From Noviherbaspirillum sp. L7-7A (GTDB taxonomy: Bacteria > Pseudomonadota > Gammaproteobacteria > Burkholderiales > Burkholderiaceae_D), in assembly GCF_019052805.1 (NCBI RefSeq), contig NZ_JAHQRJ010000001.1, positions 1,550,001 through 1,614,000 of the forward strand: a stretch of DNA of 64,000 bases, written 5' to 3'. The notes under the pieces are model-generated. The model worked only from the letters and a program-made list of their open reading frames with translations. It made no database searches and was not told where the DNA came from. Below, in pieces: positions 27,166 through 62,731 of this stretch; within the stretch, counting starts at the first letter, position 1, and every line of letters starts with the position of its first letter. A program made the position numbers and the translations under genes.

Positions 27166-27963
27166 ATGAGCATGACCGCTGTGCTGGCATCGCTGGCTGA
27201 TCTTCCCCGTGAACTGATACTGCCGCCCAGCAGCCTGTTTCTCCTGATGCTGCTCGGGCTGCTGCTGCGGCGCCGCTCGCCTGCAGCGGGCCGGGTGGTG
27301 TTCTATGGCGCCGTGGCCGCGCTGTTCGTCTTGTCCACTACAGCTGGTGCGCGGCTGTTCGTGGCGCCGCTGGAGCGGCTTACGGCGCCGCTTCAGGCTG
27401 TCCACAAGACCGGCGCCCAGGCCATCGTCGTGCTGGCTGCAGGCAGGCTGCGTGATGCGGCGGAATATGGCGGGCGGGACATCCCGGACTACATCGCGCT
27501 CGGACGGCTGCGCTATGCGGCACGGCTGCAGCGCGAGACCAGGCTGCCGGTGCTGGTTTCGGGCGGCAATGGCGCGGCTGAGGACAATGCCTGGTCCAAG
27601 GCCGATGCGATGGCTACGGCGCTGCGCGAGGATTTCGGCGTGCCGGTGAAGTGGATCGAAGGGAAGTCGAAAAATACGGCGGAGAACGCCAGCTTGAGCG
27701 CCGAAGTACTGCGGCCCGAAGCCGTCACGCGCGTCCTGCTGGTGACGGATGCGATGCACATGCCGCGTGCCCGCAATGCCTTCCAGCGCGCCGGACTGGT
27801 CGTGGTGGCCGCCCCTACCCTCTTCTTCAGCCATCCGCCGCTGGGCTTGTCGGCCTTCCTGCCCAGCGCGGAAGGCTTGCGGCAGTCCTGGTATGCGATT
27901 TATGAACTGATCGGCATTGCCTGGTATCGCTGGCGCTACCAGGCGGTTGGCGATGGAGGCTAA
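27166..27963 (+). CDS. YdcF/ElyC (DUF218) family membrane protein
   Basis: A 265-residue DUF218 protein. Two N-terminal membrane helices (about 18-34 and 42-62) are followed by the periplasmic or cytoplasmic DUF218 domain: AIVVLAAGRLRDAAEYGGRDIPDYIALGRLRYAARL, VLVSGGNGA, then SKNTAENA and VLLVTDAMHMPRA, which are the standard conserved blocks. ElyC, SanA and YdcF relatives influence envelope biogenesis, in particular undecaprenyl-phosphate and peptidoglycan metabolism. AGGAACGCA precedes the ATG at 27166; a second ATG at 27172 is possible. It overlaps no other real gene. Confidence 0.88.
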   Translation: MSMTAVLASLADLPRELILPPSSLFLLMLLGLLLRRRSPAAGRVVFYGAVAALFVLSTTAGARLFVAPLERLTAPLQAVHKTGAQAIVVLAAGRLRDAAEYGGRDIPDYIALGRLRYAARLQRETRLPVLVSGGNGAAEDNAWSKADAMATALREDFGVPVKWIEGKSKNTAENASLSAEVLRPEAVTRVLLVTDAMHMPRARNAFQRAGLVVVAAPTLFFSHPPLGLSAFLPSAEGLRQSWYAIYELIGIAWYRWRYQAVGDGG

Positions 27964-28024
27964 CGCTGCCGCGCCAGGCGTATCCATGCAATTTCACTGT
28001 GTTTGCTTACCTGAGGGGTTTTCC

Positions 28025-28789
28025 ATGTTTCTCCGTCGTCGCCGTGCCAGTCTGCTTGCAATCACGCTGCTGGCCGCGCTGCCTGTGCAGGCCCAGGAAA
28101 TGGTCGACGTGATCAAGCGCGTCAAGCCGGCAGTCGTGGCCGTTGGCACCTTCCAGCAGACCCGCAGCCCGTCGGCCGATTTCCGTGGCACCGGTTTCGC
28201 GGTGGGAGACGGCCTGAGCGTGATCACCAATGCGCATGTGCTGCCGGCGGCGCTGAACACGGAGCAGAAGGAAATGCTGGGCATTATTACCGGGGAAGGC
28301 GCAGCGCCCGTGTTTCGCACGGCGACCATCGCGGCAGTCGACAAGGAACATGACCTGGCCCATCTGCGCATCAGCGGCGCGCCGCTTCCGGTGCTCAAGC
28401 TGCAGGATTCGGACAAGGTCGAGGAAGGCCAGATGCTGGGCTTTACCGGCTTCCCGCTCGGCATGCTGCTGGGAATGCGGCATGTGACCCACCGCGCAAT
28501 GATGTCGGCCCATACGCCGCTGGCCATGCCGGCCTCCACCGCCAGCCGGCTCGATGCCAGGATGATTGCCCAGATCCAGCGCTCGCCGCTGATGGTATTC
28601 CAGCTCGATGCAACCGCTTATCCCGGCAACAGCGGCAGCCCGCTGTTCGATCCGGCCACCGGCGGCGTGGTCGGCATCATCAACATGGTCTATGTGAAGG
28701 GCGTGAAGGAAAACGCAATGAGCAACCCAAGCGGCATTGCCTATGCAATTCCGGGCAATTACATCAGCCGCCTGCTCCAGGCGAAGTAA
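28025..28789 (+). CDS. Exported trypsin-like serine protease
   Basis: A 254-residue S1-fold (Deg-like without PDZ) protease. A signal peptide (MFLRRRRASL..., hydrophobic core, cleavage near QAQ at 22-24) targets it to the periplasm. The catalytic triad is visible: His71 in TNAHVL, Asp110 in KEHDLAHL, and Ser203 in PGNSGSPLFD. There is no PDZ domain after the protease fold, so it differs from DegP/DegQ. The ATG at 28025 has GAGGGG 7 bases upstream; the open frame starts earlier without similarity. Substrate unknown. Confidence 0.87.
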   Translation: MFLRRRRASLLAITLLAALPVQAQEMVDVIKRVKPAVVAVGTFQQTRSPSADFRGTGFAVGDGLSVITNAHVLPAALNTEQKEMLGIITGEGAAPVFRTATIAAVDKEHDLAHLRISGAPLPVLKLQDSDKVEEGQMLGFTGFPLGMLLGMRHVTHRAMMSAHTPLAMPASTASRLDARMIAQIQRSPLMVFQLDATAYPGNSGSPLFDPATGGVVGIINMVYVKGVKENAMSNPSGIAYAIPGNYISRLLQAK

Positions 28790-29032: not shown

Positions 29033-29243
29033 TATCGTGTCCATCCTCTCTCGGTGTCCGCCAAACCGGCGTCTTCCTGACCGGCTTGCCAGCAGCAAAG
29101 CCAATTGTAAAAGTCACAATTATTTCTTTGCTTACAAACTGTTACACAGAGGATTTAGCAATAAGCATGCCTACGGCGGAACCGCGTGAATTCAATCACT
29201 TGCAGTTCCGCAGTCATCAACCTGTAAAATTTTCCGACAGCAA

Positions 29244-33687: not shown

Positions 33688-35036
<1,349 letters not shown>

Positions 35037-35040
<4 letters not shown>

Positions 35041-37130
35041 GCCGACTCCTCTTGCTGTTCGTCTTGCTGCTGCGCGGCCCGTTGGCCGTTCAGCGGTAAT
35101 GTAATGATGAAGCTGGTGCCCTCGCCCTGTCGGCTCTTCACTTCCAGCTGTCCGCCCAGTTCCTGCACATATTCCCGGCTTTCAAATACGCCCACGCCCA
35201 TGCCGGCGGACTTGGTGGTCTCAAACGGCTTGAACAGCCGGTCGCGGATGAATTCCGGGCTCATGCCGGTGCCGTTGTCGGCAACCTCGATGACGGCATT
35301 GCCGCCATCGCGGCGCAATCGTACCAGCACCCGGCCGTCGCGGCCGCAGGCCTCGATCGCATTCTGGATCAGGTGGCCTACCACCCTTTCCATGCGGCCC
35401 CAGTTGGCCAGCAGGGTCAAGCCGGTGTCGGCCAGTTCCAGCGTCGGCTTGGGTTCGAATTGCGATTTCAGCGCCACTGCCTGGCTTAGCAGTTTATCAA
35501 GGGAAAGCGGCGCCGGCCCCTCGATGGAGTCGCTGCTGTTGAGCTTGTGCAGCAGCAGTTTCATTTTCTTCACCGAATTGTCCAGGGTTTCCATCATGTC
35601 CTTCTGGAATTCGGGATTGTTCTTGTGCTTTTCGGCATTGGACACCAGGAGCGAGAGCTGAAAGATCAGGTTCTTCAGGTCATGCACGATGAAGGTGGAC
35701 ATCCGGTTGAACGATTCGAACTGGCGCGCCACCATCAGCGCATTGGCCGTCTGCTGCTGCGCCAGGTAACTGGCGGCCTGGTTGCCGGCGATCTTCAGCA
35801 GGTCCGTCACTTCCCAGTCCAGCACGATGCGGCTGCGCGGCTGGGACAGCACCACGAAGCCCAGCAGGCTTTCATGCATGATCAGCGGCACCACCAGCCA
35901 GGCCCGGTCCAGGCCCGCCAGCCAGTCTGGCAGCTTCAGGTGTTCATATTTTTCCGGGTCTTCACGCAGTTCACCGAGATCGATGACCCACTGCCGCTGT
36001 TCCAGGAACTGGCAGAACGGGCTGCCGGCCGGCTCGCTGCCGGCCGCATCCGGCATGTGCCACTGGGCTTCCATGCTGTAGCTGCCGCCGTTGTTGAGCC
36101 AGAGCGCGCCGGTCGGGCTCTCGACCAGGTCGGCGATGGCCTGTATCGCCCGTTCGCCCAGTCCCGGCCCCTTGGTCGACAGGGTGCGGGTAAAACGCAG
36201 CCATTCCTCGCGGTAGTCGTAGTTGTAGTTGTAGAAGTTCTTGCTGATGAACACCTTGAGCCGCGAGCGCACGGTGCCTGAGAACACGATGCCGGCCAGC
36301 AGCGCCAGGGCGGCGGCGAAGAAGGTGACCTGCATCACCGCGCCCCAGCTGCCGCCAAAGAACTTGAGCCAGTAGCCGGCCAGGGCCATCAGCAGCAGAT
36401 AGAGCGCCGCACCGAACACGGCAGCCGAGTGGAAAATCACCCGGCGCGACACCGCGATGTCCAGCGACCATTTCGGATTGCGCGCCGCGGAGACAGCAAT
36501 CAGCGGCACGGCAAGCGCATTGACCATGCCGCGCGCGGCCCAGATCTCCGAACTCAGCGAGCGGAACAGCATGGCGTCGCTGTAGAGATAGAAGTCGTAG
36601 ATGAACAGGCCGCCAATGCCGAGGCAGGCGAACTTGATGGCCCAGCGTTCCTGCGGCGGCGTGCTGCGGTAAAGCTGCTCGACCAGCAGCATGCCGATCA
36701 CGGCCAGCGCCACCCGCCCAACGAAGTTGAACATGAAGTAGACCAGCGCATCGACATCCCGCGCAATCCAGCGGGTGTAGACGGTGCCGACCGCGCAGAG
36801 CAGATACAGCGACACCAGCCCCGGCAAGGCGAGCTTGGATTGCAGCGCCGGCGTGCCGCTGGTCTTGCGGTAGGGGTTCAGCACCAGCAGCAGGAAGCCG
36901 GTCCAGGCTGCGTCGCGCGCCAGTTCCAGGACGTCGGAAAACAGCGAGAGCTGCACGCCTTGCGTGGCCTGTTGCGCCACCAAGCCGGCCCATGCCGCGG
37001 TCAGGCCGCTGGCAACCGCCAGCGCAATGCCATGCAGCCGGCCGCGCCAGCTTGTCACCATCAGCAGCGTCAGCAGGAGGAAGGCCGCCGCCGCGATGCC
37101 GTAACTGACCGCGATGACGTTGACTACCAT
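35037..37130 (-). CDS. prsK: PrsK, membrane histidine kinase of the XrtA/PEP-CTERM system
   Basis: A 697-residue sensor kinase. About the first 300 residues contain roughly nine membrane helices forming an unusual polytopic sensor. A GAF-like domain (about 325-465) follows, then a coiled segment and the dimerisation/phosphoacceptor helix with VHDLKNLIFQLSLL (His near 497), and an HATPase domain with LIQNAIEACG, VADNGTGMS, and ESREYVQELGGQLEV. The DLKN rather than DIKN or DVSH version is typical of PrsK. It overlaps prsR by 4 bases. The signal is unknown; coupling to EPS genes suggests an envelope or membrane cue. Confidence 0.94.
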
Positions 37131-37149
37131 GGCGCTGACCTCGCCAGAT

Positions 37150-38547
37150 TCACCTGCTGCCTTTGCTCAGGAGCACCACCTGCAGCGTATCGAGCAGGAT
37201 CAGCAGGTCCAGGAACAGGCTGTTGTTCTTCACGTAATAGAGGTCGTACTGCAGCTTCTGCACCGCGTCTTCCACCGAGGCGCCGTACTGGTAACGCACC
37301 TGGGCCAGGCCGGTGATGCCCGGCTTGATGCTATGGCGCATATTGTAGTAAGGCACCTGCTCGCACAGCTGCTCGACGAAGTATGGCCGCTCCGGACGCG
37401 GGCCGACGAAGCTCATGTCGCCCTTGATGACATTCAGTACCTGGGGAATCTCGTCGATGCGCAGCTTGCGTATCACTCGTCCAACCCTGGTGGTACGCGT
37501 ATCGCCGGTCTTGGCCCATACCGGCGCGCCCTCCTTCTCGGCGTCGGTGCGCATGCTGCGGAATTTCAGCACCATGAAGGTGTTGCCGTCCTCGCCCACC
37601 CGCTCCTGCCGGTAGAAAATCGGCGAACGGTCTTCCAGCCAGATCAGCAGTGCGGTGACTGCCGTCACCGGCAGCGTGCCGATCAGGATCAGCAGGCTGG
37701 CAAACAGGTCGAATGCCCGCTTGACCAGGCTGCGCATGAAAGTCTGGTCAAAGCCGCTGCCGAACACGAACCAGCTTGGCTGCAGGGAATCGACCCGGAT
37801 CTGACAGGCTTCACGTTCGAAGAAGGTGGCCGAATCGATCACCTTGATGCCGTTGAGCTTGCAGTCCAGCAGCTCGCGGATGGGGAATGCGCCGCCGCGG
37901 CGGTTCTGCACCGCCACCACGATTTCCGATGCATTGTGTTCGCTGGCAATGGCCACCAGCGACCTGCCCACGGGCAGGATGGCGCCGCCAGCCACGGCCG
38001 GGGCTTCGTCCGGCATGGGCACGAAGCCCACCACGTCATATTTGTGATAGCCGCCATTGTTGCTGGCCAGGTCGGCGCATTCCTTGGCCAGCGAACCGGC
38101 GCCCAGGAACAGGATGCGCGACTCCAGCAGGCGCGACTCGGACGACTTGAACAGCACTACCCTGACCACCAGGATGCCGCAGGCGGCAAACGCCAGCATC
38201 AGCATCAGGATGCCGCGACCGAAATAGAAGCTCGGCATCATGTAGAACACGAAGGCCGTCAGCACGAAGCCCAGCAGGAAGGAAGGCATCATGCGCAGCA
38301 GGGTATTGCGCAGTCCTTCGCGGAAGTCATGCTGGTACATGCCCAGCGCCGTCATCGCAAACACCATGGACAGGGCGAATGCCATGGCCGATGGCAGGAA
38401 CTGATGGTCGTCGGTGCGGAAGAAACCGCCTTCACCGGGCAAACGGACCGCCGCTGCCAGGTAGGCGGACGCAATGAGGATCGCTATCTCGATAATCAGC
38501 AATGCAGATGCAATCTTCGATACGTAGTGATTAGAAATTTTTAACAC
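37150..38547 (-). CDS. Undecaprenyl-phosphate sugar transferase EpsB-type (TIGR03013, XrtA-linked)
   Basis: A 465-residue initiating glycosyltransferase. Four to five N-terminal membrane helices precede a CoA-binding-like domain (FLGAGSLAKECADL), then the C-terminal Bac_transf domain with RAFDLFASLLILIGTLPV, RQERVGEDGNTFMVLKFRSMRTDAE and KLRIDEIPQVLNVIKGDMSFVGPRPERPYFV. It loads the first sugar phosphate on undecaprenyl phosphate for EPS repeat synthesis. The family N-terminus (LKISNHY...) begins exactly at a GTG (38547) with GGAG 9 bases upstream, so I chose that start instead of the longer open frame. It heads the prsK-prsR-ligase-decarboxylase run. Confidence 0.93.
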   Translation of the reverse strand: MLKISNHYVSKIASALLIIEIAILIASAYLAAAVRLPGEGGFFRTDDHQFLPSAMAFALSMVFAMTALGMYQHDFREGLRNTLLRMMPSFLLGFVLTAFVFYMMPSFYFGRGILMLMLAFAACGILVVRVVLFKSSESRLLESRILFLGAGSLAKECADLASNNGGYHKYDVVGFVPMPDEAPAVAGGAILPVGRSLVAIASEHNASEIVVAVQNRRGGAFPIRELLDCKLNGIKVIDSATFFEREACQIRVDSLQPSWFVFGSGFDQTFMRSLVKRAFDLFASLLILIGTLPVTAVTALLIWLEDRSPIFYRQERVGEDGNTFMVLKFRSMRTDAEKEGAPVWAKTGDTRTTRVGRVIRKLRIDEIPQVLNVIKGDMSFVGPRPERPYFVEQLCEQVPYYNMRHSIKPGITGLAQVRYQYGASVEDAVQKLQYDLYYVKNNSLFLDLLILLDTLQVVLLSKGSR

Positions 38548-39142
38548 TTTTTCTACTCCAGACTCATACCAGCGCGCTCCCTTCGGGGCGGCCCGGTCAA
38601 TGCAGGTCAAAGCCATGCTGCCGACGCGATCGGGGAGCAACATGACCAATCACAACAATATTTATTTCCTAAAATAAATATTACTATGAAGAAACGAATT
38701 ATCCAAGAAGCATTTAAACACAGAACATTCGCCCGGCCGGCAATACATGCTGCAGTGCATCAAGCAATGCCAGGCTTATTGCGGCTTTCGATATTCGATT
38801 GTCGCATCGATGCGACTCACAGATATCAAAAAGTCACTAGATTTCCGAACTGCATCAAACTTTCTTGGCATTAGAATAAGACTGTGGACTATCGGGCGGC
38901 ATTCCGTAATTGTTTCAGGCAGGCTCGATATAGCGCAAACCTTGCGCGGCGCATCACAATAAATTTCCATTAAGCATCATCATGACCGCCCAATATTTCG
39001 ACAAGCGCACATAATAGCCATATGACAAGTCTTGGCAAGAATTGAATGTCAAATAATTGATTATTAGCAATATTCAATTCAGGCTTTCCGCCCACTGTTA
39101 CGCTACCTTTTCCCACGACTTATTCCATGCACCCTACTATCG
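38548..39142. other. AT-rich divergent intergenic region
   Basis: About 595 bases between the EpsB-type gene and the GNAT gene, much more AT-rich than its neighbours. It holds a perfect 11-bp inverted repeat at 38657-38682. No convincing sigma-54 site was found in either direction, and the short open frames here have no family features. Confidence 0.5.
38657..38682. repeat. Perfect AT-only inverted repeat
   Basis: AATATTTATTT and AAATAAATATT form an 11-bp perfect palindrome around a CCTA loop. It is 110 bases upstream of the GTG start of the EpsB-type gene. It may be a regulator site or supercoil-sensitive element; no T-run follows outside the stem that would make it a terminator. Confidence 0.5.
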
Positions 39143-52011: not shown

Positions 52012-53256
52012 ATGCCGCACGACTTTCCGCTTTCCACGCCGCTTGTCCCCGCCCGCTCCGCCTGGCGCCTGTTGGTCGCGCTGTGCTGCTATGCCGCACT
52101 GCTGGTGTACGGCAGCCTGTACCCATTCAGTCACTGGCAAGCGCCGGCGCTGCCGGCGATGGCGTTCCTGCTGCACTGGCCAGCCCATCTCGACAAGGCC
52201 GACGTGCTGCAGAATGTGCTGGTCTATGCCCCGTTCGGGCTGCTTGCCGCGCTCTGGCTGGCGGGGCGCATGCAGGCCAGACCGGCGGCGCTGCTTGCCA
52301 CCATCATGGGAACCGCACTCAGCATGGCCATGGAATGCCTGCAGCAATTCAACCCGGCGCGGGTCGCTTCGCTGGTGGACATTGCGATGAATGCGCTGGG
52401 CAGCGGCCTGGGCGCCCTGCTCGCCGGCACCATGCTGCGGCACACGCTATCGGGCGCGTTGGCGCTGGCCTGGCGCGACCGCTGGTTCCGGCATGGCGCG
52501 CTGGCCAATACGGGGCTGGTGATTGCAGCTCTGTGGCTGCTGTCGCAGACCAGCCCGCTGGTGCCTACCCTGGACGTAAGCCATCTGCGCCGGGCGCTGT
52601 CAGGCCTGTGGCATGCGTTGCACGACCCGCGCCTGATCGTGATGACGCAGTTGCTGACCTATGCCTGCCTGTTCAGCGGCATGGGCGCGCTGATCCTGCT
52701 GCTGGCGCGCCCCGGCAAACCAGCGCTGCGCCTGTTTGCGCTGACGGTTCTGGCGATGCTGATGGCCAAGGCGCTCATCGTCGGCCGGGTGCTGTCTCTG
52801 GAGGCTTGCGCCGGGGCCGGCCTTGCGCTGCTGGCCAGCCTGCTGCTGCGCACTCTGCCGCTACGCATCCTGCCCTGGACAGGCATGCTGATGATTGTGC
52901 TCGGGTTCGCGATTGCAGAGCTCGCGCCAGGCCCGCCCTGGATGGTGGCGGAGTTCAACTGGACGCTGTTTACCGGCCAGATGCGCAGCGTCGCCGGGCT
53001 GTCCAACATCCTCGAACTGCTGTGGCTGTTCATGGCGCTGGCCTGGTTCATGCGCATTGCCTTGCCCAACGGCGGGACACGCCGCATCGCGCTCGTCGGC
53101 GCCGTGCTGACTGCTGTCGCGGTCTTTGCGCTGGAATGGCAGCAGCAGTTTCACGGCCGCTACGGCGACATTACCCAGGTGATGCTATGCGTTGCGGGCT
53201 GGATCATCCCGTGGTGCGTGCCAGCGGCAGACCGCCCGCTCGATCCGCCTATTTGA
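52012..53256 (+). CDS. VanZ-like polytopic membrane protein
   Basis: A 414-residue membrane protein with about ten hydrophobic helices. The VanZ-type core sits in the first half: YGSLYPFSHW, DKADVLQNVLVYAPFGLLAALW and AMECLQQFNPARVASLVDIAMNALGSGLGALLAG, with the conserved acidic/Asn residues. VanZ-like proteins commonly occur in EPS and cell-wall gene clusters, with unknown biochemistry. The second half (about 185-410) is extra membrane sequence not seen in the short VanZ proteins. I start at the ATG at 52012; an open frame extends 22 codons upstream. Its last bases overlap the convergent transglycosylase stop (8 bases). Confidence 0.82.
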   Translation: MPHDFPLSTPLVPARSAWRLLVALCCYAALLVYGSLYPFSHWQAPALPAMAFLLHWPAHLDKADVLQNVLVYAPFGLLAALWLAGRMQARPAALLATIMGTALSMAMECLQQFNPARVASLVDIAMNALGSGLGALLAGTMLRHTLSGALALAWRDRWFRHGALANTGLVIAALWLLSQTSPLVPTLDVSHLRRALSGLWHALHDPRLIVMTQLLTYACLFSGMGALILLLARPGKPALRLFALTVLAMLMAKALIVGRVLSLEACAGAGLALLASLLLRTLPLRILPWTGMLMIVLGFAIAELAPGPPWMVAEFNWTLFTGQMRSVAGLSNILELLWLFMALAWFMRIALPNGGTRRIALVGAVLTAVAVFALEWQQQFHGRYGDITQVMLCVAGWIIPWCVPAADRPLDPPI

Positions 53257-54151
53257 CGCTGGAAGCGCCGGCAGAAGCAGCGAGGATGGGCGAGGCCTGC
53301 ACCAATCCTTCCTGATACGGATGCGTGGTCTTGCGGTATAGCGCGGTAATGCGGCGTACGTAATCGCGGGTTTCCGGATAAGGCGGAATGCCGCGATATT
53401 TCTCCACCGCCCTCTCGCCGGCATTGTAGGCGGCGGCCACCAGGGGCACATTGCCCTTGAAAAACGCCAGCAGCCATTGGAGATACGCGACGCCGCCCTT
53501 GATGTTGTCCTCGGCGTTGAAGGCGTCCTTGACGCGGAAGCGCTGCGCGGTTTCCGGAATCAGCTGCATCAGGCCCTGCGCATTTCTGGGCGACACCGCC
53601 TTGGCATTGAAACCGGATTCAACGGCAATGAATGCCAGCACCAGTTCCGGATCAATCTCATATTTGAACGACACCTTGCCGACGGTGTTGTAGATGTGGC
53701 CGCGCGGATAATTCGGCGCCGGACCGGCCGGCACGGAGACTGCGGCGGCGACCGGCTGCGGCATCATGCAGGGCGGCGCTACCGGCTTGCTGGAAGCGAG
53801 CTGGCGCATCGTGCCAGCCTGGACATGGCCCTGCTCGGCGGCCAGTCCGAACAGATGCGCTGCAATGCCGTCGTCGCGGACAACGCCCCTGCCGTTGGCA
53901 TACATCCATCCGAGGCCATACTGTCCTTCAGCGCTGCCAGCCCTGGCCGCCGCGCAATAAAGCTCGATGGCACGGGCATAATCCCGCGGCACCCCTTCCG
54001 CATGTTCATAGCGTGCAGCTTCCTCGACCAATGCCTGCGGCCTGCGCCCACCCAGGCCATGCGCAGAAATTGCGCTGTCGGCCTGGGCCGCGACGCTGCC
54101 GGACAACACAGCGGCACAACAGAAAAATTTGGCGAAAAGCGAAAAACGCAT
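53249..54151 (-). CDS. Periplasmic lytic transglycosylase (SLT) with Sel1-type repeats
   Basis: A 300-residue exported protein. A signal peptide (MRFSLFAKFFCCAAVLSGSVAAQA) is followed by Sel1/TPR-like repeats (VPRDYARAIELYCAAARAGSAEGQYGLGWMYANGRGVVRDD and EQGHVQAGTM), then an SLT domain from about residue 165. That domain has IDPELVLAFIAVESGFNAKAVSPRNAQGLMQLIPETAQRF (catalytic Glu in ESGF), NIKGGVAYLQWLL and AAYNAGERAVEKYRGIP. It cuts peptidoglycan, possibly opening a path for polymer export. The start at 54151 has an AAAGGT ribosome-binding site. It is convergent with the VanZ-like gene and divergent from the Tat-protein gene. Confidence 0.88.
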   Translation of the reverse strand: MRFSLFAKFFCCAAVLSGSVAAQADSAISAHGLGGRRPQALVEEAARYEHAEGVPRDYARAIELYCAAARAGSAEGQYGLGWMYANGRGVVRDDGIAAHLFGLAAEQGHVQAGTMRQLASSKPVAPPCMMPQPVAAAVSVPAGPAPNYPRGHIYNTVGKVSFKYEIDPELVLAFIAVESGFNAKAVSPRNAQGLMQLIPETAQRFRVKDAFNAEDNIKGGVAYLQWLLAFFKGNVPLVAAAYNAGERAVEKYRGIPPYPETRDYVRRITALYRKTTHPYQEGLVQASPILAASAGASSVK

Positions 54152-54470
54152 GCAACGACCTTTCAATGGAAACCTTGTTGACCGAATTCGAATCACCTAC
54201 GCAGAACACGTGCGATAATTTCATTATATTATTTGCAACTAATTGCGCAACACGACTGCTGATCGGCTTCCTAAGTCTTACGAAGCTGAAGGTTTTGGAA
54301 GCATAATGCCGACAACCGCCGGATATGATGTGATATTTACAACTTCATGTTGCGTAGCGTCAAAGTAATAGCAAGCAGACATCATTCTAATTGTCAACTT
54401 TGAATCGCCTTCTGTTAGTATTAAAGTAGACGGTTAAAATTGCGTCATTCGAGGATAGGGAGTTCACAAC
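54152..54470. other. AT-rich divergent intergenic region
   Basis: About 320 bases between the transglycosylase and the Tat-signal protein genes, richer in A/T than either. It should contain the promoter of the HPr-rel-A-type cassette; GGATAGGGAG just before 54471 is its ribosome-binding site. No sigma-54 site with correct spacing, terminator or repeat was seen. Confidence 0.45.
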
Positions 54471-55169
54471 ATGACGATGGAAAATTCTGGACATGAGGAA
54501 ACGGGTCGCCAGCCACAAAACGGCGAAGCGACGACGCCTCCACAGGTGCGTAATCCATCGCGCCGCAGGTTCACCCGTGCCGGCGTGGGTGCATCCGCGG
54601 TCATTCTTACTCTCACCAGCCGCTCCGTATTGGCCCAGACAGCCTGCAAGTCGCCTTCCGGTTTTGCTTCTGCGAACCTGAGCCAGCATAACCAAGATGC
54701 TGTTGCATGCGATGGCGTCGCAGCGGCAAATTGGCTGGACCCGAACCGTCAGTGGCCAGTTCCGAAGGAAACCCGCTTCATCGATGTCTTCGGCAGTTCA
54801 AGCCTGATGTTCCGAACCGGCACGCCGCAAAAATTCTACGATGCGTTCCCCAGCCGCGTTGACAAGAAGGATTTGCCGCCAGGTCAGGCCGCCAAGAGCA
54901 CTTCGCTTGACGAGGCGACTTTGTATGAGGCGCTGAACGGTGGCGAGACGCCCGGCGTGGTCAAGTCCCTCATCGCGGCCTACCTTAACTTCAAGGCCGG
55001 ACTGAACAGCCACCCAACCGACCTGCAGGCCATCGCCATATTCAAGGAATGGCAAGCCAATGGCATTTACACGCCAAGCGCCGGCATCAAGTGGAGCGAG
55101 GACGACATCATGAACTACCTTGGCTCTACCCAGGGCCGGCCTTTCACGCCACCGAATAACCTTGGCTGA
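54471..55169 (+). CDS. Tat-signal exported protein of unknown function (candidate substrate of the downstream cassette)
   Basis: A 232-residue protein with a hydrophilic N-terminal stretch, then a twin-arginine motif SRRRFTR at 30-36 and a hydrophobic stretch (GASAVILTLTS) ending near VLA at 53-55. It is therefore predicted to be exported folded by the Tat system. I do not recognise the mature domain. Features seen: two cysteines soon after the signal (residue 59 and one about 20 residues later), a Lys/Pro-rich middle (DKKDLPPGQAAKS), and a Gly/Pro/Asn-rich C-terminus ending NNLG. It starts at ATG 54471 with AGGGAG upstream (54477 also possible). It directly precedes the PqqD/HprK/nucleotidyltransferase genes. 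Confidence 0.75.
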   Translation: MTMENSGHEETGRQPQNGEATTPPQVRNPSRRRFTRAGVGASAVILTLTSRSVLAQTACKSPSGFASANLSQHNQDAVACDGVAAANWLDPNRQWPVPKETRFIDVFGSSSLMFRTGTPQKFYDAFPSRVDKKDLPPGQAAKSTSLDEATLYEALNGGETPGVVKSLIAAYLNFKAGLNSHPTDLQAIAIFKEWQANGIYTPSAGIKWSEDDIMNYLGSTQGRPFTPPNNLG

Positions 55170-55192
55170 TGCGCGCGCAGTCTGGCGTCTAG

Positions 55193-55471
55193 ATGAACTG
55201 GAAGCTACGCGCCGGACAGCGCCTTCGCATGTTGCCGGACGACGAGGAAACGGTTGTCTACAATGACCTTTCAGGCGACACCCATCTGCTGAGCGGCATT
55301 GCGGTCAGCCTGCTGGAACGCCTGCAGCAAGGCCCTGCCAACAGCGACACCCTTGCCGGTTTTCTAGCCAGCGAATGGGAACTTGACGCCGGCATTGTCC
55401 CTGCGGCGCTGACGGAGACACTGCTGGGCGAACTTGCCGCCCTTAGCCTGATCGAGCCTATCCCATCTTGA
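55193..55471 (+). CDS. PqqD-like protein of the HPr-rel-A system
   Basis: A 92-residue PqqD-type winged-helix protein. The core block ETVVYNDLSGDTHLLSGIAVSLLERLQQG matches PqqD/RiPP-recognition-element proteins, which bind a peptide leader and hand it to a modifying enzyme. Its partners here are the HprK-related kinase and a nucleotidyltransferase, the three-gene arrangement known as HPr-rel-A. Its stop overlaps the kinase start (TTGA), so it is coupled. The ligand is unknown; the exported protein upstream is one candidate. Confidence 0.85.
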   Translation: MNWKLRAGQRLRMLPDDEETVVYNDLSGDTHLLSGIAVSLLERLQQGPANSDTLAGFLASEWELDAGIVPAALTETLLGELAALSLIEPIPS

Positions 55472-56385
55472 AGATTTCCGCACTGCCAGACGCCGAATTA
55501 CGGCAGCGCCTGATGGCCGATGGGGTGTACTTTCGTACCGGAACCTTCGTTGCCCACCTGCGCACGCGCCTCGAACAGGTGGCTGCCTCATTCGGCCTGC
55601 TCTACAGCGATTACCCACTGCTCGAAGGCCCTTACGCCGACTTCCATGTCGAGCTCGCGCCGCCGCGCGGCCTGCGTCGCTGGCTCAGGCCGCAGGTGGA
55701 CTTCATCGCGGATGGCCATGCGCCCTTTGCGGCCTTGCCCGCCGGCCAGGCATTTCCCATGTTTGAATGGGGCCTGAACTGGTGCGTCTCCAGCCAGGCC
55801 CAGCATTACCTGATCATTCATGCCGCCGTGGTCGAGAGGAACGGCCACGCCGCCATCCTGCCGGCGCCGCCCGGCTCGGGCAAGAGCACCCTGTGCGCCG
55901 CGCTGATTCATCATGGCTGGCGGCTGCTGTCGGATGAACTGACGCTGATCCGGATCGATGACGCGGCGCTGGTTCCCCTGCCCAGGCCCGTCAGCCTGAA
56001 GAATGCCTCGATCGATGTGATCAAGCGCTACGTGCCGCATGCCACCTTCAGTCCCAGTGTGACGGATACGATCAAGGGTACGGTGGCGCAGATGAAGGCG
56101 CCGAGCGAAAGCATTGAATGCGCCGATCAGGTCGCCGCGCCAGGCTGGATCATCTTTCCGCGTTATGAAGCGGATGCAGCACTGTCGCTGACGCCGGTGC
56201 CGCGCAGCCGCGCTTTCATGCGCGTGGCCGACAATGCCTTCAATTACACCCGGCTCGGTGCCGCCGGGTTTGAAGCACTCAAGGGCGTGGTCGCGCATTC
56301 CGATTGCTACGACTTGCGCTACAGCGTGCTCGATGAAGCGATCGCCGCATTCGACCGGCTGGCCAGCCAGGCAGGCAAGCGGTGA
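55468..56385 (+). CDS. HprK-related kinase A
   Basis: A 305-residue kinase related to the C-terminal P-loop domain of HPr kinase. The Walker A is PAPPGSGKST (132-141), preceded by the conserved LIIHAAVVERNGHAAIL and followed by LLSDELTLIRID, which carries the acidic residues. It lacks the HprK N-terminal domain; instead residues 1-120 form a family-specific part with FHVELAPPRGLRRWLRPQVDF. The HPr serine target motif is not relevant because no HPr gene is nearby. The start is TTG, overlapping the PqqD stop. By homology to kinases of some lasso-peptide clusters it may phosphorylate a protein or peptide; the substrate is unknown. Confidence 0.88.
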   Translation: MKISALPDAELRQRLMADGVYFRTGTFVAHLRTRLEQVAASFGLLYSDYPLLEGPYADFHVELAPPRGLRRWLRPQVDFIADGHAPFAALPAGQAFPMFEWGLNWCVSSQAQHYLIIHAAVVERNGHAAILPAPPGSGKSTLCAALIHHGWRLLSDELTLIRIDDAALVPLPRPVSLKNASIDVIKRYVPHATFSPSVTDTIKGTVAQMKAPSESIECADQVAAPGWIIFPRYEADAALSLTPVPRSRAFMRVADNAFNYTRLGAAGFEALKGVVAHSDCYDLRYSVLDEAIAAFDRLASQAGKR

Positions 56386-57458
56386 AGGCCGCACCTGTCC
56401 TGGTACGGGTCCTGCGCGACCCGGAATGCCTGCGCCACTTGTCTCCGGCGGAATGGGACCTGCTGCTGCGCCAGGCGCGCGCAGCCCAGCTGATTGCGCG
56501 TCTTGCTCTCCTGGCCCAGCGCCATGCGCCCGACGCGATCGCGCCGCAGGTGGCGCCCCATTTCGAGGGCGCCCTGCTGGTGGCCCAGCGCCACCGCGAA
56601 GCGGTGGAGTGGGAAATCACGCAGATCAGGCAGGCGCTTGGCAGCGTCGGGTTGCCGCTGATCCTGCTCAAGGGCGCAGCCTATCTGGCCGCCGGCGTGC
56701 CCGCTGCCAGTGGCCGCAGTTTTGCCGATATCGATATCCTGGTACCGAGGGCGCGCATCAACCAGGCCGAGGCTGCGCTGATGATGCACGGCTGGGCTAC
56801 CAGCCACCATAGCGCCTACGATGACCGCTACTACCGGGCATGGATGCATGAACTGCCGCCGATGCAGCATGGACGGCGCATGACGGTGGTGGATGTGCAC
56901 CATGCCATCCTGCCGATAACGGCTTCCAGCAAACCGGATTCCGCCAGGCTCATTGCCGCCGCCCGTGCGCTGCCCGAGCGGCCTGGTGTGCTGGTGCTGG
57001 CGCCGGTTGACATGGTGATCCACAGCGCCTGCCATCTGTTTCATGAAGAGGAGCTGGAAAAGGGCCTGCGCGACCTGAGTGATCTCGATCTGCTGCTGCG
57101 CGGCTTCGCTGCCCTGCCCGGCTTCTGGTCGGAACTGCTTGCGCGGGCAAGAGAACTGGATCTGGAGCGAGCCGTGTTTTATGCCTTGCACTTTTCCAGC
57201 CGGCTGCTGGGAACGCCGGTACCGATGGCAACGCTGCAGGCGGCGCAACGGTTTGCCCCGGCGCCACCACTGATGCGCTTGATGGATGCGCTGTATGGCC
57301 GGGCTCTGCTGCCGCACCATCCAAGTTGCTACCACGGTTACAGCGCGCTGGCGGGACGCATGCTGTTCGTGCGCGCGCATTGGCTGCGCATGCCGCCGGC
57401 ACTGCTTGCCCGTCACCTTGTGCACAAGGCCGTGGTTGCCTTCAAGGGGGAAGATTAA
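56382..57458 (+). CDS. Nucleotidyltransferase-fold protein of the HPr-rel-A system
   Basis: A 358-residue protein of the NTP_transf_5 type. The nucleotidyltransferase signature is LPLILLKGAAYLAAG followed by GRSFADIDILV, with the metal-binding aspartates at 116 and 118. C-terminal helices include HSACHLFHEEELEKGLRDLSDLDLLLR, typical of the family. It starts at GTG, overlapping the kinase stop as GTGA. It is the third member of the PqqD-kinase-nucleotidyltransferase set. The reaction (adenylylation or other NMP transfer) and target are unknown. Confidence 0.86.
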   Translation: MKAAPVLVRVLRDPECLRHLSPAEWDLLLRQARAAQLIARLALLAQRHAPDAIAPQVAPHFEGALLVAQRHREAVEWEITQIRQALGSVGLPLILLKGAAYLAAGVPAASGRSFADIDILVPRARINQAEAALMMHGWATSHHSAYDDRYYRAWMHELPPMQHGRRMTVVDVHHAILPITASSKPDSARLIAAARALPERPGVLVLAPVDMVIHSACHLFHEEELEKGLRDLSDLDLLLRGFAALPGFWSELLARARELDLERAVFYALHFSSRLLGTPVPMATLQAAQRFAPAPPLMRLMDALYGRALLPHHPSCYHGYSALAGRMLFVRAHWLRMPPALLARHLVHKAVVAFKGED

Positions 57459-58814: not shown

Positions 58815-60257
58815 ATGGCCAACCTTCGCCGCTCCCTGGTAATCAACTTCTTCTCGTCCACGGGAGCGACGATCGTGCAGTTTATCGTCAGTCTCCTGCT
58901 GGCGCGCATGCTCAGCCCGGCCGAGATCGGGGTTTTCTCGATGACGGTGGTGTTCGTCAACATTGCCCATATCTTCCGCGACTTCGGCGTCGGCACCTAT
59001 CTGCAGCGCGAGCCGGAGCTGACGGAAGAGCGGATGCGCGCCGCCATCGGCGTGATGTTCACCACTTCCTGGCTGATCGCCGCTGCGCTGTTCTTCGCCA
59101 GCGGCGCCATCAGCCGATGGTTCGACGAGCCGGCCATGCTGCCCGTCATGCAGGTCCTTGCCATCGGCTTCATCTTCATTCCGTTCGGCTCGATTACCCA
59201 TTCGATGCTCACGCGAGAATTCGCCGCCGGCAAGCAGGCGATCGTCAATGTGGTCGGCACTGCGACCTTCGCGGTGACATGCCTGGGTCTGGCAGCCCTT
59301 GGTTTTGGCACCATGAGCATGGCCTGGGCCAACCTTGCCAACATCATTGCCTGCGCCATCGCCTACATCCCACTGCGCCCCGCGATCCTGCCGTGGCTGC
59401 CCAGCTTTCGCAAATGGCGTCATGTGATGCATTTCGGCGTCGGGTCGCTGCTGTCCAATTGCCTTGGCTCGATCAACAACGCGCTGCCCGACATCCTGCT
59501 CGGCAAGCTTGGCAACGCCACCCTGGTCGGCCTGTTCAGCCGCGCCAGCTCGACCGTGTCGATCTTTGCCTACGTGGCCGGCAGCACCGTCAACTACGGC
59601 TCGCTTTCCTACATCTCGCAGGCGCACCACAGGAATGAGCCGCTGGGCCCGCTGATCAATCGCGCCACCAGCCTGCTGACCGGTGTGGGCTGGACCGCCC
59701 TTGCGCTGACCTATGTGTTCAGCAAGGAAATCATCGTCACGCTGTACGGCGAGAAATGGATGCCTGCCGTACCCGCGATCGATGCGCTGCTGCTTGCTTC
59801 TGCGGTCGGCATGATGTTCAACTACACCTCGACGGCACTGACCGCCATCGGCCGGCCCTATCTGTCAGCCACGCCCATCATCGCCATGCTGGCCACGCGT
59901 ATCGTGTTCGGGTATGTGCTGTTCAAAGGGGATATCGAGAGTTTTTCCTGGTCGATCTGTTCGGCCACTCTGGTTGCCGCGCCAGTCATGATTTATCAGC
60001 ACTATGCCTACCTGGGCCACCGCTTCAGCACCATGCTGGTCGCCCTGTGGCCGAGCGCAGCGGTAGCCTTGACCTGCCTGGCCGCAGCACTGATGTTCAA
60101 GGCCATCCTGCCGGCCTCGCTGCCGCCCATGGCCGTGTTGCTGATACTGGCGCTTCCGCTGGCAAGCGTCTGGTACGTGGCGCTGCGCCTCACCGGACAT
60201 CCGCTGTCGGCCGAACTGCACCACGTCGCCAATGGCCTCAAAGCGCGGCTCGCCTGA
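58815..60257 (+). CDS. MOP-superfamily oligosaccharide flippase (Wzx/WzxC-like)
   Basis: A 480-residue polytopic protein with about 12-14 membrane helices. The N-terminus NFFSSTGATIVQFIVSLLLARMLSPAEIGVFSMTVVF is the typical polysaccharide-exporter opening; FRDFGVGTYLQRE and YISQAHHRNEPLG are further family-like stretches. It would move the lipid-linked EPS repeat across the inner membrane. It lies between glycosyltransferase genes, as expected for a Wzx/Wzy-type cluster, though no Wzy polymerase is seen in the window. Spacing to the previous gene is 34 bases. Confidence 0.9.
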   Translation: MANLRRSLVINFFSSTGATIVQFIVSLLLARMLSPAEIGVFSMTVVFVNIAHIFRDFGVGTYLQREPELTEERMRAAIGVMFTTSWLIAAALFFASGAISRWFDEPAMLPVMQVLAIGFIFIPFGSITHSMLTREFAAGKQAIVNVVGTATFAVTCLGLAALGFGTMSMAWANLANIIACAIAYIPLRPAILPWLPSFRKWRHVMHFGVGSLLSNCLGSINNALPDILLGKLGNATLVGLFSRASSTVSIFAYVAGSTVNYGSLSYISQAHHRNEPLGPLINRATSLLTGVGWTALALTYVFSKEIIVTLYGEKWMPAVPAIDALLLASAVGMMFNYTSTALTAIGRPYLSATPIIAMLATRIVFGYVLFKGDIESFSWSICSATLVAAPVMIYQHYAYLGHRFSTMLVALWPSAAVALTCLAAALMFKAILPASLPPMAVLLILALPLASVWYVALRLTGHPLSAELHHVANGLKARLA

Positions 60258-60339
60258 CCGGGCGCGCTGCGCCGCCTCGTCTTTTTGAAACGGGCCGCCC
60301 GCAACGGCTGGACCCGGCTATTTTTGGAGAATCCCTATC

Positions 60340-61377
60340 GTGATGCCCACCAACCCGCCCGTGCATAACGATGCGGCGCCAGGCAGGCAGACTATCCTGA
60401 TCAGCATCCTGAACTGGAATTCCGCCGCCGTGACGCTGGAGTGCGTCCAGTCGCTGCTTGCGCTACGACCCAGCGCCGCCTATGAGGCATCGATCGTGGT
60501 AATCGACAACGGTTCAGCCGCGGAGGACTACCAGTTGCTGCGGCAAGGAATCGATGCCAGCCGCGTCACCTTGCTGCGGCAGGATACCAACCTGGGTTTT
60601 GCAGGCGGCCATAACATCGCCATGCGCATGGCGCTGGCGCAGGAAAAAGACTTCATCTGGCTGGTCAACAGCGATGCCGTGATCGACCCCGACTGTCTGG
60701 AGAAGCTGGTAGCGCTGATGCAGGCCCATCCCGACTGCGGCGCAACCTCACCCGTGATTGTCGCCCTTGATGACGACCAGGAAATCGATTTCTGCGGCGC
60801 CCGCCACGACTGGCCGCGTCTTGAAACGGCACGTCCCGAGGGCATCGCCCAGGCGCGTGCCTGGGAAGCCGAGCATGCCGCCACCATGTGGGTGGCGGGC
60901 ACCGTGGTGCTGTACCGGGTAGCGGCGCTGCGACAGGTCGGGGTCCTGGACGAGGAAATGTTTGCCTACTACGAAGACACCGATATCGGCGCCCGCCTCT
61001 CACAGGCGGGATGGCGCAGCCTGGTGGCCTTCGAGGCGCGCGCCCGCCACCTGCGCTACCCCTATGACCTGTTGCACCGGCCACCGTATTACTTCTACCT
61101 GATGACGCGCAACGGCATTCTGTTCTGGAGCCGGCACACCCCAGCCGCCCACCGCGGCCGCCTGCGGCTGCGGCTGCTCGACCGCTCACTGTTCCTAGCC
61201 AATATCCTGATGTCGAAGTCACAGACGGAGAAGGCGCGTGCCTGCATGCTCGGCGCTCTGGATGGCATGCGGGGCCGGGGCGGCCCGCCGCGCCTGGAGC
61301 GGCGCGTGCCGCGGCTGGTCGAGCTGCTGCGCAAGGTGCTGCTGGTCCAGCACGCCCGGCACATGGCGTCCAAGTAG
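60340..61377 (+). CDS. GT2 family glycosyltransferase, rhamnosyltransferase-like
   Basis: A 345-residue GT2. Blocks are ILISILNWNSAAVTLECVQSLL, VVIDNGSAAED, DTNLGFAGGHNIAMRMAL and the DXD-like WLVNSDAVIDPDCLEKLV, then MWVAGTVVLYRVAALRQVGVLDEEMFAYYEDTDIGARLSQAGW. The NLGFAGGHN and YYEDTD blocks are typical of rhamnosyltransferases, but the donor is not proved. The start may be GTG at 60340 (9 bases after GGAGA) or ATG at 60343. It is part of the EPS glycosyltransferase series with the next gene, which follows after 58 bases. Confidence 0.9.
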   Translation: MMPTNPPVHNDAAPGRQTILISILNWNSAAVTLECVQSLLALRPSAAYEASIVVIDNGSAAEDYQLLRQGIDASRVTLLRQDTNLGFAGGHNIAMRMALAQEKDFIWLVNSDAVIDPDCLEKLVALMQAHPDCGATSPVIVALDDDQEIDFCGARHDWPRLETARPEGIAQARAWEAEHAATMWVAGTVVLYRVAALRQVGVLDEEMFAYYEDTDIGARLSQAGWRSLVAFEARARHLRYPYDLLHRPPYYFYLMTRNGILFWSRHTPAAHRGRLRLRLLDRSLFLANILMSKSQTEKARACMLGALDGMRGRGGPPRLERRVPRLVELLRKVLLVQHARHMASK

Positions 61378-61435
61378 CCGCAGAGGCCCGCGGCAACGCA
61401 ATCCGAAATCCAAAGGCAATACGAGAGGTGTACCG

Positions 61436-62731
61436 ATGACACGAAAGAAACTACTGATCCTGACGCAAACCCTGCCGGCACTGGGCGGCCAGGGTACGGC
61501 CATGCGGCTGGGTAATATGCTGGAAGCACTGGCGCGCCACTTCGACATCACGATGATCTGCGTGTCGGTGGACCGCCCTACTCATCCGGAGATCCTCGCC
61601 GAACGCTGGAAGCAGCTTTGCAGCCGCGCCATCTTCTTCAATGTGGCCGACGAGGGCGAGCCATTGCGCCAACGGCAACGCAACACCCTCACCAGGCTGA
61701 TGAATCCGCATCCCAAGCTGCTGTCGACCTGGCCGGTGGAGCACATCATGAGTCGGCTGTCCCAGTTCCGCAGCGAGCATTTTGATGCGGTGCTGGTATC
61801 GCGCATCCGCCTGATGCCGCTGTGGCGCGCGATGCAGGCACAGCTTGGCGTCCGGGCCGACCGCAGGATTCTCGACCTTGACGACATCGAGTCGCGTTCA
61901 CAGGCGCTGCAGGTCAATATGCTGGGTGTATCCCACCTGGGCAGGATGGGCTATGTACTGGAGTGGCTGGAGGCCAAAAAGCTGGCACGCGAGGAAGCCC
62001 GCGCCTTCAGCGAGATGGAACAGGTGCTGTTGTGCTCGCCTGAAGACAAGGCGCTGCTCGCACAGCGTTTCAGCGAGCGGCAGATCGGCGTGATTCCCAA
62101 CACGATCCGTGTGCCGGCCCAGCTTCCCGCGCGCCAGCCGCGTGCGCCGCTGCAACTGCTGTTTGTCGGCACGCTCAACTATCCACCCAACGAAAACGCG
62201 GTGAAGTGGCTGACGGAAGAGATCATCCCGGCCATTCGCAAGCAGGTCGGCCCGGACAATGCGGTCCTCACCGTGATCGGCCGCGGTCCGACGGAGTGGA
62301 TGAAACAGCAGGCAGCGGCCGGCGCCTTCGTGTTGCATGGCGATGTGCCCGATGTCGCTCCCTACTACGAAGCATGCGACGCGGTGCTTGTGCCGATCCG
62401 CGCGGGCGGCGGCACGCGCATCAAGATACTGGAAGCCTTTGGTTATGGCCGTGTCGTGATTTCCACGACGCTGGGCGCCGAAGGGATCGCAGCCGGGTAT
62501 GGCAGCGAGCTGCTGATTGCCAACAGCCCCGACGAGTTTGCCGAAGCAAGCGGCCGGCTACTGCAGGAACCTGAACTGGCGCAACGGCTGATCGCCCATG
62601 GACGGCGAAGGGTGATGGAGCGCTATTCGATGGGAGCCTGTGAAGAGGCCGTCGACGCCATCTTCCTGCCCACCATGGCAGGTCAGGCTCCCACTGGCCT
62701 GCAGGAAGCGCAGGCAACGCCGACAAGTTAG
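61436..62731 (+). CDS. GT4-type glycosyltransferase (GT-B fold)
   Basis: A 431-residue GT-B enzyme. The N-terminal part opens with LLILTQTLPALGGQGTAMRLGNMLEAL; the C-terminal Rossmann part has LFVGTLNYPPNENAVKWL, VIGRGPTEWMK, LHGDVPDVAPYYEACDAVLVPIRAGGGTRIKILEAFGYGRVVISTTLGAEGI, the donor-sugar-phosphate site of GT4 enzymes. Methionine at 61436 has GAGAGG 7 bases upstream; the longer frame overlaps the previous gene and is a shadow. The gene ends at a strong terminator. Sugar specificity cannot be read from the sequence. Confidence 0.9.
   Translation: MTRKKLLILTQTLPALGGQGTAMRLGNMLEALARHFDITMICVSVDRPTHPEILAERWKQLCSRAIFFNVADEGEPLRQRQRNTLTRLMNPHPKLLSTWPVEHIMSRLSQFRSEHFDAVLVSRIRLMPLWRAMQAQLGVRADRRILDLDDIESRSQALQVNMLGVSHLGRMGYVLEWLEAKKLAREEARAFSEMEQVLLCSPEDKALLAQRFSERQIGVIPNTIRVPAQLPARQPRAPLQLLFVGTLNYPPNENAVKWLTEEIIPAIRKQVGPDNAVLTVIGRGPTEWMKQQAAAGAFVLHGDVPDVAPYYEACDAVLVPIRAGGGTRIKILEAFGYGRVVISTTLGAEGIAAGYGSELLIANSPDEFAEASGRLLQEPELAQRLIAHGRRRVMERYSMGACEEAVDAIFLPTMAGQAPTGLQEAQATPTS

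Follow-up and report, generated by a model that had tools for sequence, protein, structure and literature searches.

What do the enzymes of an HPr-rel-A cassette act on? The question is raised by a 64-kb stretch of the Noviherbaspirillum sp. L7-7A genome (hereafter the window; C1:1550001-1614000 of 5.2 Mb, with coordinates given as positions in the window), in which a gene for a protein with a twin-arginine translocation (Tat) signal is followed by genes for a PqqD-like protein, an HprK-like kinase and a nucleotidyltransferase. HPr-rel-A cassettes are named in databases, and the NCBIfam families as displayed name no substrate. The literature searched, which lacked most subscription journals, gave no substrate either and contained no mention of HPr-rel-A, HprK-related kinase A or GYWKNH, a motif of the Tat-signal protein family. 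Comparison across genomes suggests that the Tat-signal protein is probably the target of the cassette enzymes.

A preliminary description of the locus placed four genes of these identities on one strand at 54471-57458. All four open reading frames are confirmed on the plus strand at these positions, and the three enzyme-side genes score above NCBIfam or Pfam cut-offs. The description further held that the three genes after the Tat gene overlap by stop and start codons and begin with TTG or GTG. The PqqD/kinase (TTGA) and kinase/nucleotidyltransferase (GTGA) overlaps are present, as are TTG or GTG starts in two of the last three genes. The start codon of the PqqD gene, however, is an ATG located 23 nt past the Tat stop codon, which leaves two overlapping junctions rather than three, with none between Tat and PqqD. 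The kinase indeed has no HPr gene within its cassette. The single HPr gene of the genome is located elsewhere and an ordinary HPr kinase (333.8 bits, cut-off 240) is encoded about 1.15 Mb away, which makes the cassette kinase an additional one.

The proposal that the Tat protein accompanies the trio across genomes was examined in two samples: 148 relatives, 31 of which encode a kinase over the TIGR04352 cut-off, and 274 genomes of the class, 27 of which do. With G000 and G136 present in both, the combined set holds 56 kinase-positive genomes, 55 of them assessable and one (G405) cut by a contig end. The loci read were those of over-cut-off kinases plus G330; ten relatives with only under-cut-off kinase matches were left out. 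A further set consists of the best 80 of at least 313 relatives confirmed in a kinase-profile scan. Since the best-scoring loci were kept, this set leans to close kinases, and since at least nine of the 80 loci come from genomes already in family profile A1, it is not independent of the genome set.

The proposal would fail if most loci lacked the Tat protein, which is not the case at the loci read. A Tat-signal gene stands beside the kinase in 55/55 assessable genomes (47 with a member of the window protein's family, seven with another cargo and one with a short cargo) and in 80/80 loci of the 80-locus set. In 76 of these 80 loci a family profile match lies at most 1.8 kb upstream on the same strand, and in the remaining four the Tat gene lies downstream of the kinase, two of them having two copies. 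Tandem Tat-protein copies are found downstream of the kinase in L217 (5668-7104) and L228 (2532-4040). Used as a query, the window Tat protein matches 27 of the 148 relatives, all among the 31 kinase-positive ones. Reading the loci raised the number with a same-family protein to 28, including G136, whose protein is 19% identical to that of the window and was assigned from its position and motif; G093, G102 and G116 encode a sequence-unrelated Tat-signal protein, about 2.4 kb downstream of the kinase in G093. Among the 27 class loci a family member lies upstream in 21, G162, G238, G280 and G359 carry another Tat-signal cargo, G204 has a 77-residue Tat-signal peptide beside the kinase, and the G405 locus is truncated. 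Tat signals of alternative cargoes were judged by eye.

The rest of the trio is similarly constant. The PqqD-like gene is present in all 80 loci and the nucleotidyltransferase in 78, with both misses at contig ends. Among the 56 kinase-positive genomes, the PqqD profile matches 55, and the last (G155) has an unmatched open reading frame of fitting size and place. The nucleotidyltransferase profile matches 52, and the other four carry the gene divergently nearby. An apparent absence of the nucleotidyltransferase from four alternative-cargo loci was rejected once the whole genomes were searched: the gene adjoins the Tat gene in divergent orientation.

Most cassette Tat proteins form one family that has no Pfam or NCBIfam model. 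Neither the window protein nor any of 28 members scanned has an NCBIfam match, which includes PEP-CTERM models, and the only Pfam match is a chance one in a single member (Glutenin_hmw, E 0.0035). In a profile alignment of 77 rows, 76 of them filled at the signal and serine columns, only R31, R32, S63 and S67 are invariant (76/76, a count that this type of alignment can favour by matching serines). Conservation of the signal extends past the arginine pair to T47 (65/76) and S50 (63/76); the hydrophobic stretch was judged by eye, and cleavage presumably falls near A55. C59 (66/74), W95 (68/73) and S71 (48/74) are less constant. S63 and S67 each exceed 90% in a free alignment of 86 sequences, and the pair is kept in all six downstream Tat copies. 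The preliminary description had suggested the C-terminus as the place to seek conserved hydroxyl residues; the best conserved ones are instead found at the start of the mature chain.

The remainder of the mature chain is predicted to form a confident helical domain. Two AlphaFold models (predicted local distance difference test, pLDDT, 71.4 and predicted template modelling score, pTM, 0.63; pLDDT 79.8 and pTM 0.67) had no credible match in a PDB structure search (best E 3.8 and 2.5), and the family profile matched no PDB sequence. In the Foldseek viral library, model m0f5927de64bc has as its best match an uncharacterised pithovirus protein (A0A481YQX6, E 0.012, probability 1.00, TM 0.36). A restriction of the mature domain to the cassette system was considered and rejected. 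Profile A1 matches 29 of the 274 class genomes: 22 matches, including that in G204, stand beside an over-cut-off kinase, one (G330) stands beside a weak HprK-like match (48 bits), and in six genomes the domain occurs in other, mostly larger proteins with no over-cut-off kinase alongside. In L140-L144 and L147 a GYWKNH-type mature domain forms the end of other proteins, most of them larger and with repeat-like regions.

Two loci carry much reduced Tat-signal products. In L145 (G330, contig C15, 1504-1776), a 91-residue Tat-signal open reading frame with an SNLSGN motif and little else lies beside the 48-bit HprK-like match and is possibly a minimal precursor. In L146 (G204, contig C33, 1396-1626), the 77-residue peptide takes the place of the full protein next to an over-cut-off kinase and a divergent nucleotidyltransferase, and could be either a minimal precursor or a remnant.

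The type of kinase changes together with the type of cargo. Among 56 kinases placed in a tree, those of the eight loci with other or short cargo form one side of a single branch (support 100/99) that is present in all 200 bootstrap trees. Shuffled cargo labels require a mean of 7.6 changes, and none of 500 shuffles is as good as the single change observed. G405, of unknown cargo, falls among the 48 others. The bootstrap of the tree had yet to settle (0.917), and G116 forms a long branch.

These patterns bear on an explanation in which the PqqD-like protein binds the Tat protein as a Tat-signal chaperone, a role that NapD and DmsD play. The kinase and the nucleotidyltransferase would have a sugar, lipid or polysaccharide intermediate as their substrate, and the Tat protein would be no more than another component at work in that exopolysaccharide layer. 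In favour of this view, small molecules are frequent substrates of nucleotidyltransferases, the cassette has glycosyltransferase, flippase and exosortase-A genes around it, and all cargoes have only the signal region in common. A C-terminal motif common to the alternative cargoes was considered and rejected, as alignment gave no support. Against it stand the split of cargo class and kinase class at the same branch, the case of G280 and G393, which belong to one taxonomic family and differ in both classes, and the greater constancy of S63 and S67 relative to any mature-domain residue. We consider this explanation unlikely.

Both enzymes appear catalytically intact. Kinase residues H118, K139, D156 and E157 are kept in 81/81 sequences, and nucleotidyltransferase residues D116, D118, D171 and H173 in 79/79. 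The kinase scores far below the cut-off of the hpr-ser model (16.2 bits, cut-off 240), and the best PDB matches of its profile are HprK structures (E 0.0016). Another point of reference is the lasso-peptide kinase BsfK. According to the accessible part of the report on that enzyme, its motif consists of H148, G163, G166, G168, K169, S170, D186 and D187, it phosphorylates Ser3 of its precursor, the RiPP recognition element (RRE; RiPP, ribosomally synthesized and post-translationally modified peptide) BsfB1 greatly raises phosphorylation, and the gene cluster includes a nucleotidyltransferase gene (PMC10368454). The His-to-Lys (21) and Lys-to-Asp (17) spacings are equal in the cassette kinase, which has the BsfK-type positions H118, G136, G138, K139, S140 and D156. 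In pseudomycoidin, the available part of another report describes phosphorylation by PsmK and placement of a hexose on the phosphoserine by the nucleotidyltransferase homologue PsmN, and does not settle whether PsmN truly is a nucleotidyltransferase (PMC9266682).

We therefore favour as the simplest reading, with moderate confidence and on the strength of sequence comparison, a cassette whose substrate is the adjacent Tat-signal protein, which would undergo guided serine phosphorylation, followed by nucleotidylation or glycosylation, ahead of its export by Tat. In the cytosol, the PqqD-like protein would bind and present the precursor through the signal region or a site close to it, in the way that a leader is bound by an RRE. 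The HprK-type kinase would phosphorylate S67 or S63, both near the beginning of the mature chain, and the nucleotidyltransferase would add a nucleotide or sugar to that phosphate. Tat would then export the modified protein, which may serve the exosortase-A exopolysaccharide layer.

Table. Cassette genes, parts of the Tat-signal protein and exopolysaccharide genes of the window
Feature	Position	Strand	Basis and remarks
Tat-signal protein, 232 aa, proposed substrate	54471..55169	+	Open reading frame; no Pfam/NCBIfam match; relatives adjoin kinase
Signal region, residues R31 to A55	54561..54635	+	RR in 76/76 filled rows; only part shared with alternative cargoes
S63-G-F-A-S67-A-N-L-S71, proposed acceptor region	54657..54683	+	S63 codon 54657, S67 codon 54669
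Mature domain, 'SPGYWKNH...AAYLN' family	54696..55136	+	Alignment; window copy lacks literal GYWKNH; model pLDDT 71.4, high at about residues 140-220
PqqD-like protein, 92 aa, TIGR04353 (PqqD_rel_X)	55193..55471	+	NCBIfam 54 bits, cut-off 35
HprK-related kinase A, 305 aa, TIGR04352 (HprK_rel_A)	55468..56385	+	NCBIfam 386.2 bits, cut-off 200; H118, K139, D156, E157 conserved
Nucleotidyltransferase, 358 aa, PF14907 (NTP_transf_5)	56382..57458	+	Pfam 186.8 bits, cut-off 31.2; D116, D118, D171, H173 conserved
PrsR, PEP-CTERM-box response regulator	33691..35181 (stop-to-stop)	-	TIGR02915 756 bits, cut-off 502.6
PrsK histidine kinase, XrtA/PEP-CTERM system	35040..37166 (stop-to-stop)	-	TIGR02916 862 bits, cut-off 300
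XrtA/PEP-CTERM system glycosyltransferase, EpsB type	37153..38649 (stop-to-stop)	-	TIGR03013 571.4 bits, cut-off 393.35
Flippase and two glycosyltransferases downstream of cassette	58815..62731	+	NCBIfam/Pfam matches

Several observations weigh against this reading. Linkage by itself is no proof that the Tat protein is modified, and we infer binding, both modifications, export and the role in the layer. The profile alignment can favour matching serines. On visual inspection, the class genome G395 carries Thr in place of the first serine, and in another class genome, G369, one additional residue separates the two positions. For the alternative cargoes, which have no S-x3-S motif, the acceptor would have to differ. 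The kinase departs from BsfK in having Ala for the first Walker A Gly and Glu157 for the last Asp. Finally, the window Tat gene lacks the sigma-54/PrsR promoter seen in many relatives.

This promoter type is that of PEP-CTERM genes, which, in the accessible part of the report describing it, have an upstream 17-nt motif ending in TTTACA followed by a sigma-54 site (PMC1569441). Upstream of the Tat gene, a sigma-54 score of at least 10/12 is reached in 35/73 loci, compared to 6/730 single-base shuffles and 0/73 kinase-internal stretches, and 18 of those 35 loci have an exact TTTACA at 20-110 nt, with 0.9 expected. The pattern TGTCG-N6-TTTACA with at most one mismatch occurs in 49/73 loci (0/730 shuffles, 0/73 kinase-internal stretches), although only its TTTACA part is independent evidence because the TGTCG part was derived from the same loci. 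The promoter type is missing from 18/73 loci, including all four Noviherbaspirillum loci of the 80-locus set, and it was looked for and rejected at the window's own Tat gene. Across the genome, PrsR-box matches only mildly exceed a reversed-pattern control (57 vs 39 with at most one mismatch; 13 exact). One exact box (29223-29239, minus strand) lies just past the end of a mannose-1-phosphate guanylyltransferase-like open reading frame, named by eye; no target gene was found for it.

Together with the gene overlaps, the shared promoter type in relatives indicates tight co-expression, as would be expected if the four genes simply shared an operon in exopolysaccharide loci, with the kinase in control of a regulator, in the manner of HPr kinase and HPr, and the Tat protein left unmodified. 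The Tat gene, however, stays with the trio when it lies downstream of the kinase or when the nucleotidyltransferase is divergent, HprK and HPr are separately encoded in the genome, and the PqqD-like protein has no obvious place in such a scheme. Plain co-regulation strikes us as quite improbable.

The tie of the cassette to exopolysaccharide, also part of the preliminary description, is strong. Exosortase A is over its cut-off in 29/31 kinase-positive relatives (42/148 overall; Fisher p 1.8e-18, kinship ignored) and in 22/27 kinase-positive class genomes (51/274 overall; p 4.4e-14, kinship likewise ignored). In the 29 relatives it lies less than 50 kb from the kinase in 21, farther on the same contig in two and on another contig in six; in the source genome it lies about 19 kb past the cassette. 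Genes for an XrtA ATPase, a tyrosine kinase, and chain-length and export functions follow past the window end, all over cut-offs.

So strong an association, along with the sigma-54/PrsR promoter type held in common, could suggest that PEP-CTERM proteins or some other exosortase substrate are what the trio modifies, with the Tat protein as an accessory. Exosortase A is nonetheless commoner than the cassette (42 vs 31 of 148 genomes; 51 vs 27 of 274), G199 and G204 yield no exosortase match at E 1e-30 despite having the cassette, and every assessable cassette comes with the Tat protein. We regard a PEP-CTERM-type target as very improbable.

Other neighbours were noted. A Sel1-repeat lytic transglycosylase gene (53249-54196, minus strand) is divergent from the Tat gene, and its cluster is near the cassette in 7/80 loci. 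A trypsin-like protease (27911-28786, plus strand), about 26 kb from the cassette, belongs to a cluster near the cassette in 23/80 loci and has no NCBIfam match at E 1e-60. A neighbour cluster resembling NtrC was not counted as PrsR, its best match being NtrC; the PrsR of the window was confirmed separately.

Overall, the interpretation in the preliminary description is partly supported. A bolder version of the favoured mechanism makes HPr-rel-A a two-step pathway: the PqqD-like protein would read the Tat signal as a leader, the kinase would form phosphoserine at S67 or S63 and NTP_transf_5 would extend it, yielding an exported phospho-sugar carrier that is the covalent anchor or primer for exosortase-A exopolysaccharide. 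This version is tentative, and we consider it rather unlikely; if true, it would represent RiPP-style, signal-guided modification of a secreted protein. A linked family with two nearly invariant serines makes the substrate question directly testable by mass spectrometry.

Comparison with known systems places these findings in context. The window kinase (TIGR04352) and PqqD family peptide chaperone (TIGR04353) exceed the curated HPr-rel-A cut-offs, and a nucleotidyltransferase, which we take to be part of the named system, is provided by the PF14907 protein. To this system our analyses add the Tat protein, the invariant serines, the exosortase-A link and the PrsR-type promoter. HPr(Ser) kinase/phosphorylase is a distant relation, matched weakly by the cassette kinase, with the true HprK being another gene. 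The XrtA/PEP-CTERM system shares the genomic setting and, in many relatives, the sigma-54 site and TTTACA motif in front of the Tat gene (by the accessible part of PMC1569441), whereas the Tat protein matches no PEP-CTERM model and would rely on Tat for its export. If the favoured reading is true, this widespread and poorly understood polysaccharide system gains a new part.

The juxtaposition of a Tat precursor gene with genes for a PqqD-like RRE and enzymes recalls RRE-guided RiPP pathways, and the cassette would work like lasso-peptide tailoring. As far as the accessible parts of the reports go, the BsfK/BsfB1/BsfN, PadeK and PsmK/PsmN systems share with it an HprK-like kinase, a PqqD-like RRE and a nucleotidyltransferase (PMC10368454, PMC9266682), and the acceptor serine of BsfA likewise lies close behind the leader (PMC10368454). 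The cassette differs in the Glu that replaces the last catalytic Asp of the lasso kinase and in the lack of a lasso cyclase or leader peptidase among its genes and the six neighbouring proteins scanned (NCBIfam/Pfam, 51.9-62.7 kb). Its precursor is also a protein of about 160-300 residues (77 in one case) with a Tat signal. RRE-guided phosphorylation would thus, if the favoured reading is true, extend from small lasso precursors to Tat-exported proteins.

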